Part shown: positions 36,471 to 63,971 of the stretch, in pieces | How positions within the stretch are numbered: the stretch's first letter is position 1 | Layout: every line of letters starts with the position of its first letter | Source: Candidatus Jettenia caeni | GTDB lineage: Bacteria > Planctomycetota > Brocadiia > Brocadiales > Brocadiaceae | Direction: 5' to 3' | Length of the DNA stretch: 64,000 bases | Assembly (NCBI GenBank): GCA_000296795.1 | Contig: BAFH01000004.1 | Location: 992,001 to 1,056,000, forward strand | The notes under the pieces: generated by a model | What the model was told of the DNA's origin: nothing | Seen by the model: only the letters and a program-made list of their open reading frames with translations | Database searches by the model: none | Program-made: the position numbers and the translations under genes

Positions 36471-37844
36471 TTAACTGCTCTGCTCCAATATTGTAGCGAT
36501 AAGCGGGAATGGGGCCCGTTTAGGAATTGTTGGACCATTTCTACTCAGCAACAAAGCTTCCTCTGTCAGATTTCCGCGGGCGTTTATAATATCGGTAGTT
36601 GAATCAAGTTTATTGCTGCCCATCAGGAAGCCAGAATTGTTCTCTCCACAATATCCCAAGATAACGGTGTTCTCTTCACCACTATCCACGACACCATTTC
36701 CATTTACATCGCAAATCCACTCATTGCTATCATAGATTGGATTACCAACGCTTACGATTCCATTGCCATCTTCATCGTTATCCCTTCCAAATCCATTCCA
36801 CAGTCTATTTGAAGGCCTTCCCGTGGTTGGATGTACATACACAGCCTCACGGATGAAGAACTCCACATGGCCGTCAGCAAAACATACATTAGCACCACCA
36901 TCATGACGGTTACTTACAATACCTCTGGCTGCAATGCTCTGACGATTGCTGCCACCTGCTGCTCCACAAATATCATTCAACGAGATATTTGAGTTTGCAA
37001 TATTTGTAGCAGTATCAAGATTCCGGCATGGGAGGAATGTCCCATCAATTTGGTAACCTTCGTTTCCAAGTGTTGTAGTCCTGCAAAACGTAAGAGAGCC
37101 ACCGGTTCCCCAGCCAGTTGCCGCCGCAGCACCACCTGGAGCGAATGATATATTACCTTCTGCTGTTTCTGCGGTAATCATCTCTGTTGGCGGCCGGTAT
37201 GAATCAAGGTGTCCTGTACCATCCGTATCCGCTATAGCGATAGTCCTTGTAGGGTCTTTTATTTCAGCAAGTGTTACGGGGTAATTGACGTAACCGTTCT
37301 TCTTTCTCCCTGAGGTTCTCATAGCCGGAGGCGTCACAGTTTCATATGTTGCCCTTGCATTGCCGAGATAATTGTGGTTGTATCCGTAGGAGTTATTCCT
37401 TCCGATCTTCCACTCACCATCAACCTCCGGGCATATGAAGGCACGCGTAAAGACTGATTGATCCAAGTCACCCATTTCATTCGTTGTACCAGTATTACCC
37501 TGGGCATTGGTACGAGCTCGTTCATCAGCGCCCATGTAAGGTGAAAGGGTATTGAACCATCTCTGGCGTACCTGTGTGGCGCCGCTCCCTACGTCTATTG
37601 CAGATGCTGGATACATCCCGGTATCGGTTACATACTGAACCAGGGCATTCCCCCACTGTCTGAGATTTTCGGCGCACTTGGCCTGCCTTGATTTTGCCAG
37701 AGAATTAATTGCTGCCGGGGTTATGATACCTCCGAGAATGCCGGCCACGCCGATGGCAGCCAACATCTCGATCAGCGTAAAACCGGAGACGGATTTACGC
37801 CCCTTCTTTATCTTTTCTCTTATATTCTTCAATATCTTTTTCAT
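36471..37844 (-). CDS. Type IV pilin-like protein with planctomycete H-X9-DG signature
   Basis: 457 residues. Seen: prepilin signal VSGFTLIEMLAAIGVAGILG (Gly-1, Phe+1, Glu+5); the SRQAKCAENLRQWGNALVQY segment after the helix; and SNRHDGGANVCFADGHVEFF near residue 300, the H-X9-DG feature of planctomycete DUF1559-type pilins. An Asp-rich DNDEDGNGIVSV / DVNGNGVVDSGEEN region resembles the calcium loops of the secretion pseudopilins. It stands alone and could be a substrate or major pilin of the 0-23 kb machine. GC-rich inverted repeat follows its stop. Confidence 0.9.
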   Translation of the reverse strand: MKKILKNIREKIKKGRKSVSGFTLIEMLAAIGVAGILGGIITPAAINSLAKSRQAKCAENLRQWGNALVQYVTDTGMYPASAIDVGSGATQVRQRWFNTLSPYMGADERARTNAQGNTGTTNEMGDLDQSVFTRAFICPEVDGEWKIGRNNSYGYNHNYLGNARATYETVTPPAMRTSGRKKNGYVNYPVTLAEIKDPTRTIAIADTDGTGHLDSYRPPTEMITAETAEGNISFAPGGAAAATGWGTGGSLTFCRTTTLGNEGYQIDGTFLPCRNLDTATNIANSNISLNDICGAAGGSNRQSIAARGIVSNRHDGGANVCFADGHVEFFIREAVYVHPTTGRPSNRLWNGFGRDNDEDGNGIVSVGNPIYDSNEWICDVNGNGVVDSGEENTVILGYCGENNSGFLMGSNKLDSTTDIINARGNLTEEALLLSRNGPTIPKRAPFPLIATILEQSS

Positions 37845-38145
37845 TGTGTTTTATTTACTCCTTTTCTTTCTCTTAAGATTATTGAAATATTTTTCCACCT
37901 GTTTACACTACAAGCATTACCCGCTAAAATTGACCATACAGACCTGCACGATCTTCCACCTTTTTGAGCCAGAGGCCCATCACGTTTCCTTCCTGCCGTT
38001 ACCACCTCCTTTTTTCATGCTGGCGGAACCGGCAAAACCACCCTGTGTTCTTGAAAATAGTATATTCTGTTTTCTTTTCTGCACTTTTGTGGATCACATC
38101 CTTCTCTCAACATACCAGGCATACTTCGTCAGTAAGCCCGATACA

Positions 38146-38240
38146 ACAAAAAAGGCCTGGCAAGGAGGGCTGATGATATACCCTCCTTACCTCGTCCCGG
38201 AGATTGTCAGCTATACTTATTTGCCGGTCTGCTGGCAACC
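38146..38240 (-). ncRNA. Structured RNA-like element, copy 3 (P1 hairpin plus terminator)
   Basis: Read on the minus strand: stem GGTTGCCAGC/GCTGACAATC enclosing AGACCGGCAAATAAGTATA, then CCGGGACGAGG, then a hairpin GGTAAGGAGGG/CCCTCCTTGCC followed by T6. Copies at 39424 and 39128 keep the loop GACCGGC-W-AA...GTAYA and the GGGAC segment while P1 stem bases change compensatorily. About 300 nt upstream of the pilin start; no clear promoter seen before this copy. Family not recognised. Confidence 0.55.
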
Positions 38241-38344
38241 TCACCCCTTACTGCCTAACCACAGAGGACACAAAGAATACAGAGAAAAAATCTCCTTTAT
38301 CTCTATGCACTTTGTAGCTATCAGCTATCTCAAAATTTCACTAT

Positions 38345-38940
38345 TAAAATAAGCCTTCGGCGACTTTATTTGTCACCACACGTAGGGCAAGGCTTTAGCC
38401 TTGCTTCCCCGCCGGAATGTGCACGGAAGAGAGCAACCCTAAAGGGTTGCCCTACGGAACTGAAATTCCTATACATTACATTAGGTTGGGTTTTAAAAGG
38501 CAAAACCCAACGACCTTTACCCACCCCTAACCCCTCCCAAGAGGGGAATAAATACACCCCTAACCCCTCTCAAGTGGGGAGTATAAAAGTCCCCTCTCGG
38601 GAGGGGATTGAGGGGTGGGTTAACAGCATCATGAAAAACTTTGAAATTCCTATACATTAAATTAGACCTTCGGCGACTTTTGTTTTGCGGCCAGGCGTAG
38701 GGACGAAGCATTTGCCGTTCAGCGTATACATAGTATTTTAGGCCAATAACGGCAAATGCTTCGCCCCTACAATACATATTGAATTTCCTATACGTTAAAT
38801 TAGACCTTCGGCGACTTTTTCCCCTCCCTTGATGGGAGGGGTTAGGGGAGGGTGGTTGTCCTTTTCTTTCACCCTCACCTAGTCTCCCCCATCATGGGGG
38901 AGGAACTCTTTGTTTGAATTTCCTAAGCATTAAATTATTG
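38345..38940. repeat. Tandem mosaic array of four hairpin cassettes with constant borders
   Basis: Successive units share a left border (AGACCTTCGGCGACTTT, near 38350, 38665 and 38803) and/or a right border (GAAATTCCTATACATTA or close variants, near 38462, 38642, 38782, 38911), but each has a different hairpin interior: GGCAAGGCTTTAGCCTTGC; GGGTTTTAAAAGGCAAAACCC with C-rich arms; GAAGCATTTGCCGTT with its inverse; and CCCTCCCTTGATGGGAGGGG. The same borders occur singly near 25138, 28085, 40770, 54290 and 60690-60775. No ORF is convincing in the array. Confidence 0.7.
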
Positions 38941-39127: not shown

Positions 39128-39225
39128 CAACAAAAAAAGCCCAACAAGAGAGGTACCTTCTTTCCTTATCATTGTCCCATTGATTAACAGTTGTACATAT
39201 TAGCCGGTCTGCCGTTAATCACAAT
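39128..39225 (-). ncRNA. Putative small RNA, copy 1, with promoter, Fur-like operator and terminator
   Basis: Minus-strand element: P1 GATTAAC/GTTAATC with conserved loop GCAGACCGGCTAATATGTACA, then GGGACAATGATAAGG, then an AAGAAGG/CCTCTCTT hairpin and T7. Directly upstream are an operator (39231-39249) and a strong sigma-70-type promoter (39257-39284), so this copy has everything needed for an independent, regulated, terminated transcript of about 110-130 nt. Confidence 0.65.
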
Positions 39226-39230
39226 ACAAT

Positions 39231-39284
39231 GAAACTGAGTCTCAGTTTCGACAAACACTATACCAGAATAAAAATCATTGTCAA
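39231..39284 (-). promoter_or_regulatory. Promoter plus palindromic operator for the putative small RNA
   Basis: Minus strand: -35 TTGACA (39279-39284), 16-nt spacer, -10 TATAGT (39257-39262), then the perfect palindrome GAAACTGAGACTCAGTTTC (39231-39249) around +1. It shares the TGAGACTCAG core with the operators at 40444, 54403 and 63913. Confidence 0.75.
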
Positions 39285-39423
39285 TAAAAATATTAGAAAT
39301 AATACCTTGTTATTAATAACTTTTCATAAGCATTCAATAAAATCCCTGTATCATCAGCCTGCTATCAAAAAGCTTGTTTACGGTTTTTATTGACATTACC
39401 CTCTCAAGTATTTATAATTTTTA

Positions 39424-39517
39424 CTAAGGCCTAGCAAAGAGGCAAAAAAACCTCCTTGTCCTGGTCCCGGGGATTAATAATTGTACTTTAGCCGGTCGGT
39501 TATTAATCCCTTTTTTT
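39424..39517 (-). ncRNA. Structured RNA-like element, copy 2
   Basis: Minus strand: P1 GGGATTAATAA/TTATTAATCCC with loop CCGACCGGCTAAAGTACAA, then CGGGACCAGGACAAGGAGG, T7 and GCCTCTTTGCTAGGCC. On the plus strand the P1 hairpin is followed by T7 (39511-39517), so it could also serve as a plus-strand terminator. P1 differs from copies 1 and 3 by paired changes. Confidence 0.55.
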
Positions 39518-39613: not shown

Positions 39614-39666
39614 AAAAAAGCCTTACCGCAAAGATACTCATGGAAAATATCTTCGGCAGTAAGGCT
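39614..39666 (-). terminator. Rho-independent terminator (minus strand)
   Basis: Long hairpin AGCCTTACTGCCGAAGATA / TATCTTTGCGGTAAGGCT (near-perfect, about 18 bp) followed on the minus strand by T6. It would end minus-strand transcription coming from the DUF2325 gene at 40094, about 430 nt upstream. Confidence 0.8.
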
Positions 39667-39909
39667 ATCTTATTTCAACGTGTCGGTTATGAGTGTAAGT
39701 GTCTGTTATTTAAACTGACACTGCCCACCAGCACTGTCCACTGTTACAAGACCCTTTCCTTTGCGCCCCCCGATCACTCGAGGTTTACCTTTATCGAATA
39801 TTTTACCGCTTTAGTTCTCTGTTACAGAGAAATTTTCATTTTACCTATACAGCCTAAGGTATAGTATAGCCGAAATCATCCGTTTTACGAGAGATAGATC
39901 AAGGCTTTA

Positions 39910-40093: not shown

Positions 40094-40408
40094 TTACACC
40101 AGAGCCTGTAACCCTATCTTTTTTAATTGTCTCTGGTTTTCCTTCATTTTCTGATGTACAGACGACCATGATCTTTTTGCATAGACAATGGGGATGCCTT
40201 TACTTTCAGCGATCTTTTTTATCTTATGCGACAGATTATGATTGACAAAGTCGTACAGTACTATGATAAAGTCCATAGTTTCCGGAATTCCTCCGTGTAC
40301 CTTTTGTCCACTCCTCCCGGTTATATGCCGGACATCATTTACCCCCATTCTATCAAGTTCTTTTGGAATACTACCTAAATGATCACCACCGACAATAAGT
40401 ACAGACAT
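40094..40408 (-). CDS. DUF2325 family protein
   Basis: 104-residue soluble protein with a small Rossmann-like fold: MSVLIVGGDHLGSIPKELDRMG at the N-terminus, the conserved HxxGR (RHITGRSGQK) and DFIIVLYDFVNHNLSHKIKKIAESKGIPIVYAKRSW. This matches DUF2325, a family of unknown function. RBS GAGGAGAG precedes the ATG. A very strong operator (perfect 12-1-12 palindrome) and a TTGACA promoter lie 36-85 bp upstream, so expression is probably metal- or redox-controlled together with the 54-50 kb cluster. A role in metal homeostasis is inference from that operator. Confidence 0.85.
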   Translation of the reverse strand: MSVLIVGGDHLGSIPKELDRMGVNDVRHITGRSGQKVHGGIPETMDFIIVLYDFVNHNLSHKIKKIAESKGIPIVYAKRSWSSVHQKMKENQRQLKKIGLQALV

Positions 40409-40442: not shown

Positions 40443-40492
40443 TATATTGAGACTCAGTCTCAATATAATATAAAAAAAATTTTAGATGTCAA
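40443..40492 (-). promoter_or_regulatory. Promoter and Fur-like operator upstream of the DUF2325 gene
   Basis: Palindrome ATTGAGACT-C-AGTCTCAAT extends to 12-1-12 (40443-40467). Minus-strand TTGACA at 40487-40492 is followed after 16 nt by TATTAT. The operator would cover the start site. Confidence 0.75.
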
Positions 40493-54402: not shown

Positions 54403-54448
54403 TAAGACTCAGTCTCAATAAGATAAATAAAAAAAGATCGTATGTCAA
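54403..54448 (-). promoter_or_regulatory. Promoter and Fur-like operator for the P1B ATPase cluster
   Basis: Minus strand TTGACA (54443-54448), 17-nt spacer, TATCTT (54420-54425), then TGAGACT-G-AGTCTTA (54403-54417), one mismatch from a perfect 7-1-7 palindrome. About 230 nt of leader precede the first gene, with no other feature seen in it. Confidence 0.75.
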
Positions 54449-60780: not shown

Positions 60781-60797
60781 TTGAGTCTTAATCTCAA
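60781..60797 (-). promoter_or_regulatory. Degenerate Fur-like operator upstream of nirK
   Basis: TTGAGTCTTAATCTCAA, a 7-1-7-type palindrome with two symmetric differences from the other operators, preceded on the minus strand by TTGAAA and an AT-rich spacer with TATATT. It sits between the FAD gene stop (60829) and nirK. Confidence 0.5.
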
Positions 60798-63912: not shown

Positions 63913-63971
63913 TGAGACTCATTCTCAAAACGAGAGGTGGCATTATATAAAATATAAAAAGATATTGTCAA
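63913..63971 (-). promoter_or_regulatory. Promoter and Fur-like operator upstream of the porin
   Basis: Minus strand TTGACA (63966-63971), 18-nt spacer, TATAAT (63942-63947), then TGAGAATGAGTCTCA (63913-63927), whose left half is a standard Fur half-site and whose right half matches the other operators. Located 26-84 bp upstream of the GTG start. Confidence 0.78.

Follow-up and report, generated by a model that had tools for sequence, protein, structure and literature searches.

A Family of RNA Elements in Brocadiaceae with a Probable Fur Box and a Complementary RNA Points to a Possible RNA Control Circuit

The sequence analysis of the window (the whole stretch of 64,000 nucleotides of Candidatus Jettenia caeni DNA) favours an undescribed RNA control circuit over a lone RyhB-like RNA. 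An earlier note had described the element named here E1 as a complete small-RNA gene and as a candidate iron-responsive RNA comparable in logic to RyhB. We found that E1 belongs to a family with two further members in the window, namely E2, which carries the element in the reverse sense (39429–39510), and E3. The reading that we prefer is that E2 acts as an antisense RNA on attenuator-like E3 leaders, while E1 serves as a Fur-controlled leader segment and sponge; we hold it tentatively, at just short of an even chance. The 4.09 Mb genome carrying the window encodes hydrazine synthase and, therefore, belongs to an anammox bacterium. A search of the open-access literature returned no description of regulatory small RNAs resembling E1, E2, or E3 in anammox bacteria. 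A Kuenenia RNA-seq study of 2020 (PMC7438415) had removed the reads that matched annotated non-coding RNAs. The positions of the features are collected in Table 1.

Table 1. Positions of the E1, E2, and E3 elements and of the associated features in the window.
Feature	Position	Strand	Remarks
E1, whole element	39284–39132	−	Promoter, palindrome, stem-loop, T7
E1 promoter, TTGACA-16-TATAGT	39257–39284	−	11/12 matches; also in relatives
Probable Fur box directly 3′ of the E1 −10 (GAAACTGAGACTCAGTTTC; 7-1-7 core TGAGACTCAGTTTCA at 39230–39244)	39230–39249	−	Motif match; shared with feoB and DUF2325
E1 stem-loop P1, loop GACCGGCTAA (39209–39200) ... GTACAA	39182–39220	−	Covarying stem, invariant loop
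E1 3′ region, GGGAC...GGGC-T7	39132–39178	−	Weak terminator-like end; T7 at 39138–39132; weak hairpin
E2 promoter, TTGACA-17-TATAAT	39390–39418	+	12/12; kept in 10/10 genomes with E2
Predicted E2 RNA: 5′ hairpin (anti-SD-like ACCTCCTT), terminator hairpin 39470–39510 (loop TTGTACTTTAGCCGGTC, 39481–39497), T7	39425–39517	+	Complementary to E1/E3
E3, third member; strong terminator hairpin and T6; leader of pilin-like gene	38155–38242	−	72.5 bits; terminator −25.7 kcal/mol
Pilin-like gene following E3, with DUF1559 (SBP_bac_10)	36471–37844	−	ATG ~310 nt past E3
DUF2325 gene with perfect Fur box, upstream of the E2/E1 pair	40094–40408	−	Kept in five genomes examined
Fur box of the DUF2325 gene, TGAGACTGAGTCTCA (14/14)	40448–40462	−	After TTGACA-16-TATTAT

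Most parts of E1 were recovered as the earlier note had listed them. The promoter hexamers TTGACA (39284–39279) and TATAGT (39262–39257) stand 16 nt apart on the minus strand and recur in relatives. Just past the −10 hexamer, a perfect 19-bp palindrome matches GAAACTGAGACTCAGTTTC exactly at 39249–39231 and contains the 7-1-7 motif TGAGACTnAGTCTCA; by chance alone, the window should contain 0.03 sites resembling GAAACTGAGACTCAGTTTC with up to three mismatches. The stem-loop has the form GATTAACGGC-AGACCGGCTAATATGTACAA-CTGTTAATC (39220–39182), and its stem covaries across relatives. The claim that the RNA has no ORF agrees with our finding of no reading frame conserved across relatives. A coding E1 RNA was rejected: frames such as MGQWQGKG... 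in the genomes G022 and G024 are broken in the window, in G013, and in others. The terminator claimed by the earlier note stood in part: the T7 run is present, but the hairpin is weak (−6.4 kcal/mol, in a fold that also pairs the U-run), and the terminator scan made no call at the E1 3′ end in the window. The E1 terminator hairpins of relatives are better than that of the window, yet modest. Folding of the whole E1 RNA gave z values of −0.9 to −1.7.

The E1 palindrome very probably represents a Fur box, as the earlier note had proposed in calling the operator Fur-like. The related pattern TGAGAnTnAnTCTCA (at most one mismatch) occurs at 19 places in the same genome, versus 4 for the reversed control. 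One of these places lies ~50 nt upstream of feoB, directly after the −10 hexamer (the identity of FeoB was confirmed). Altogether, the same box follows the feoB −10 in 6 of 11 genomes (G000, G001, G002, G005, G020, and G022), and none was found within ~200 nt of the matched feoB start in G013, G017, G024, G029, and G032. The DUF2325 gene has a box upstream in all five genomes examined, and 11 of the 13 E1-type loci have one matching at 12–13 of 14 positions. Since the box is common to feoB, DUF2325, and E1, and two FUR-family proteins are encoded in the genome, Fur-type iron control of E1 is likely, with Fur itself as the presumed acting protein. Within the window, sites matching at 12 or more of 14 positions number five, versus 0.15 expected. 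The other four lie upstream of the DUF2325 gene, a porin-like gene (63913–63927), a gene for an HMA_2 protein near a P-type ATPase (54403–54417), and a gene for a nirK-like multicopper oxidase (60782–60796). The last three genes form a cluster that is likely iron-controlled.

A combination of sequence similarity and a covariance model revealed elements in 11 of the 33 Brocadiaceae genomes, about 33 in all and spread over three genera. No convincing element turned up in 26 genomes searched from neighbouring families. A fourth member in the genome carrying the window lies on another contig, ahead of a carbamoyltransferase/asparagine-synthase operon. No family in Rfam 15 matched E1, E2, or E3, the sole match in the window being a neighbouring c-di-GMP-I riboswitch. 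The covariance model of RyhB (RF00057) gave no match at the gathering score or at E values up to 5, in accordance with the earlier statement that E1 is not homologous to RyhB. Wider homologues sought by a pattern scan were mostly chance matches, except for clostridial toxin-antitoxin loci. In five clostridial loci (L034, L040, L044, L056, and L063), the loop GACCGGCTAA(A)GTACAA, the same 16–17 nt as in E2, lies in the terminator hairpin of a convergent RNA; this likeness may reflect convergence or shared origin.

The P1 stem is supported by covariation: 8 of 10 pairs are changed on both sides, 96% of the cells are paired, and doubly changed cells number 52, compared with 17.7 in shuffles. Sliding the stem partners abolishes this signal. 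The loop GACCGGCU, GUA.A, and a GGGAC further on are nearly invariant across the family. Conservation had also suggested a pseudoknot between the loop and the 3′ arm (CCGGC with GCYGG), which is unneeded, as in E3 the conserved GGGAC takes part in the basal pairing of the terminator. Most E1/E3 loops contain a YUNR U-turn, present as CUNR in 14 of the 18 elements with all four bases occurring at N; the window, G001, and G005 have an E3 type that has lost it. Such loops speed the contact between sense and antisense RNAs in hok/Sok and pIP501 and are typical of antisense-recognition loops (PMC6562991). Within the window, the range of this search, the exact complement of the loop occurs at E1 and E2 only.

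The E2 gene (39390–39517, plus strand) is divergent from E1 and occurs in 10 of the 11 genomes. Downstream of its promoter come a hairpin with ACCUCCUU and then the terminator hairpin; in a few genomes, the T-run of the latter is broken up or reduced in length. The loop segment CTGTACTTTAGCCGGTCGG is nearly invariant, and the promoter spacer has diverged. Nine G-U wobble cells of the terminator stem, at three positions, can pair in plus-strand RNA alone, and no cell shows the reverse pattern. The possibility that E2 is a minus-strand leader like E1 was rejected on the strength of the promoter, the T-run, and the wobbles, although the signal of the 5′ hairpin is mixed. It should be noted that this hairpin has the opposite wobble sign, 12 versus 3, its mismatches being wobbles on the other strand. 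A hairpin maintained as the complement of E1/E3 would be expected to show this sign; alternatively, it could reflect mixed strand use.

The predicted duplexes of E2 with the elements reach −74 to −110 kcal/mol, compared with means of −31 to −53 kcal/mol for shuffled elements. Co-adaptation of E2 to the targets of its own genome was not found, as own-genome duplexes were no better than cross-genome ones. An E1-type element without E2 occurs in G020, and E2 without an element in G002. As E2 and E1/E3 are homologous, their complementarity alone may be inherited rather than selected. A function of the pair is instead argued by the contact loop, which is kept on both sides under separate promoters, together with CUNR in E1/E3.

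The DUF2325 gene precedes the E2/E1 pair in the five genomes examined, which cover three genera. The c-di-GMP-I riboswitch (RF01051, 46.4 bits; 39652–39799, minus strand), followed by a terminator hairpin, lies between this gene and E2, and many similar copies are scattered through this genome and those of its relatives. It was rejected as part of the E1/E2 unit, being multi-copy and placed elsewhere relative to E1/E2 in G013.

Most relatives are of the E3 type, with strong terminators, and stand in the leaders of pilin-like, CbiX-like/GEVED, and EPS operons. Their terminators range from −14 to −26 kcal/mol and are followed by T5–T7, whereas those of E1 are weak. In the window, G001, G013, and G005, the gene behind E3 is the DUF1559 pilin-like one. 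The order E1, then E3, is found ahead of the CbiX-like/GEVED/Reeler operon in G022, G024 (twice), and G017, and an E1-type element lacking the Fur promoter takes this place in G032 and G029. A cytochrome b operon lies behind boxed E1-type elements in three genomes (G020, G013, and G024). Because E1/E3 relatives often occupy leaders, the sequence data argue that E1 is not merely a lone small RNA, although ~900 nt of repeat-containing DNA separate E1 from E3 in the window. Between them, at 38461–38938, the 24-nt repeat TGAAATTCCTATACATTAAATTAG occurs four times, with C-rich inverted repeats interspersed. Past E3 (37990–38120, minus strand), a third hairpin is followed by SD-like sequences, and in relatives, perfect complements of the 16S tail (AAGGAGGTGATC) occur downstream of E3 without a conserved reading frame. 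A conserved leader peptide after E3 was rejected: AAGGAGGTGAT, a perfect SD-like sequence, is common there, but no conserved frame follows it.

The sequence itself shows the parts and their strands, how far they are conserved and complementary, and the box that E1 has in common with feoB. For the preferred antisense reading, we infer transcription, pairing in the cell, and the direction of the effect as follows. The strong divergent promoter beside E1 would produce the ~95-nt E2 RNA, which is complementary to the elements in its loop and 5′ hairpin. E2 and an element would first meet through their loops (GACCGGCU with AGCCGGUC), a step aided by the CUNR U-turn, before pairing over their whole length. 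In E3 leaders, this pairing would settle whether the terminator forms and, hence, whether the operon is transcribed. Release of its promoter by Fur would allow E1 to be made, and E1 would itself be a target of E2. Where E1 lies close upstream of E3 or of a gene, it would be the first segment of the leader; in the window, where it is far from genes, it would mainly be a sponge titrating E2 at low iron. The further proposal that one constitutive antisense RNA, several attenuator operons, and a Fur-controlled sponge copy pass the iron status on to non-iron operons by RNA alone is conceivable, though we consider it doubtful. The antisense reading, if true, would mean a conserved RNA regulon, linked to an iron box, in organisms with a heavy demand for iron and haem.

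The main rival to the antisense reading is a riboswitch-like class in which the conserved loop would be the ligand site and the terminator the expression platform, with Fur as a second layer at E1 and E2 as a side product or an antisense copy. The invariant unpaired loop on a covarying stem, the strong terminators in leaders, and the tandem E1–E3 copies fit such a class. We nevertheless think it unlikely, as the complement of the loop is conserved in E2 under its own promoter and on its own strand, and the variable N in CUNR suits a U-turn better than a ligand contact. Besides, the genes served are diverse, and no antiterminator helix was noticed on unsystematic inspection.

The logic of the earlier note, in which E1 is a free-standing Fur-repressed small RNA pairing in trans with the mRNAs of iron proteins, appears quite improbable to us. 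The own promoter and the Fur box of E1 speak for it, as does the ~900 nt of repeat-rich DNA before E3, which would make E1 a separate short transcript in the window; the weak terminator, the location of the relatives' E1 in leaders, and a conserved loop already matched by E2 speak against it, and no pairing with iron genes came to light, the loop complement having been sought across the window. Of that claim, the comparison with RyhB holds only for the Fur box. Slightly more improbable still is an origin of E1/E2 from a type I toxin-antitoxin locus that lost its toxin frame, the elements being remnants spread by duplication. Adjacent divergent complementary RNAs do resemble such loci, and four of the five clostridial loci sharing the 16–17 nt loop in a convergent terminator hairpin have BsrG/holin-like toxin frames. 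These loci were, however, picked out by searching for that very loop, and convergence may account for the match; neither E1 nor E2 has a toxin frame, and the promoters, the Fur box, and the leader positions are conserved as though functional.

Several known systems share parts of this arrangement. In tisB/istR, shoB/ohsC, zorO/orzO, and dinQ/agrB, adjacent divergent RNAs have extended complementarity, and one of them is under a stress regulator. E1 and E2 are likewise adjacent, divergent, and extensively complementary, but a small hydrophobic toxin frame is absent from E2 and the candidate frames of E1 are not conserved; in addition, a Fur box replaces the LexA box and more targets lie elsewhere in the genome. 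RyhB and other Fur-repressed small RNAs share with E1 the Fur-type control, here predicted, of a short non-coding RNA, whereas the non-homologous E1 family has leader copies and a putative dedicated antisense RNA. In the attenuation of pIP501 and pT181 (RNAIII on the leader), a short, strongly promoted antisense RNA likewise faces a leader stem-loop with an intrinsic terminator and a U-turn in the target loop (present here in most elements, though not in E3 of the window). Correspondingly, a complementary RNA with its own promoter and terminator and E3 leaders with an intrinsic terminator (weak in E1) were found here. The plasmid antisense RNAs are, however, encoded opposite a single target, whereas E2 lies beside E1 and divergent from it, the E3 copies lie elsewhere, and several chromosomal leaders bear the target element, one kind of them under a Fur box. 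The antisense reading, if true, would be a chromosomal, multi-target version of antisense attenuation, which is otherwise known mainly from plasmids. ChiZ is an example of a sponge RNA derived from a 5′-UTR (PMC7815308). As proposed for E1, in ChiX-ChiZ-chiP a leader gives rise to a short RNA that titrates the leader's own antisense regulator; unlike ChiZ, E1 is under its own Fur-box promoter, and the organism and sequences are unrelated. In our analysis, the closest known logic is, thus, that of the antisense attenuation of plasmid pIP501 combined with a leader-derived sponge such as ChiZ.
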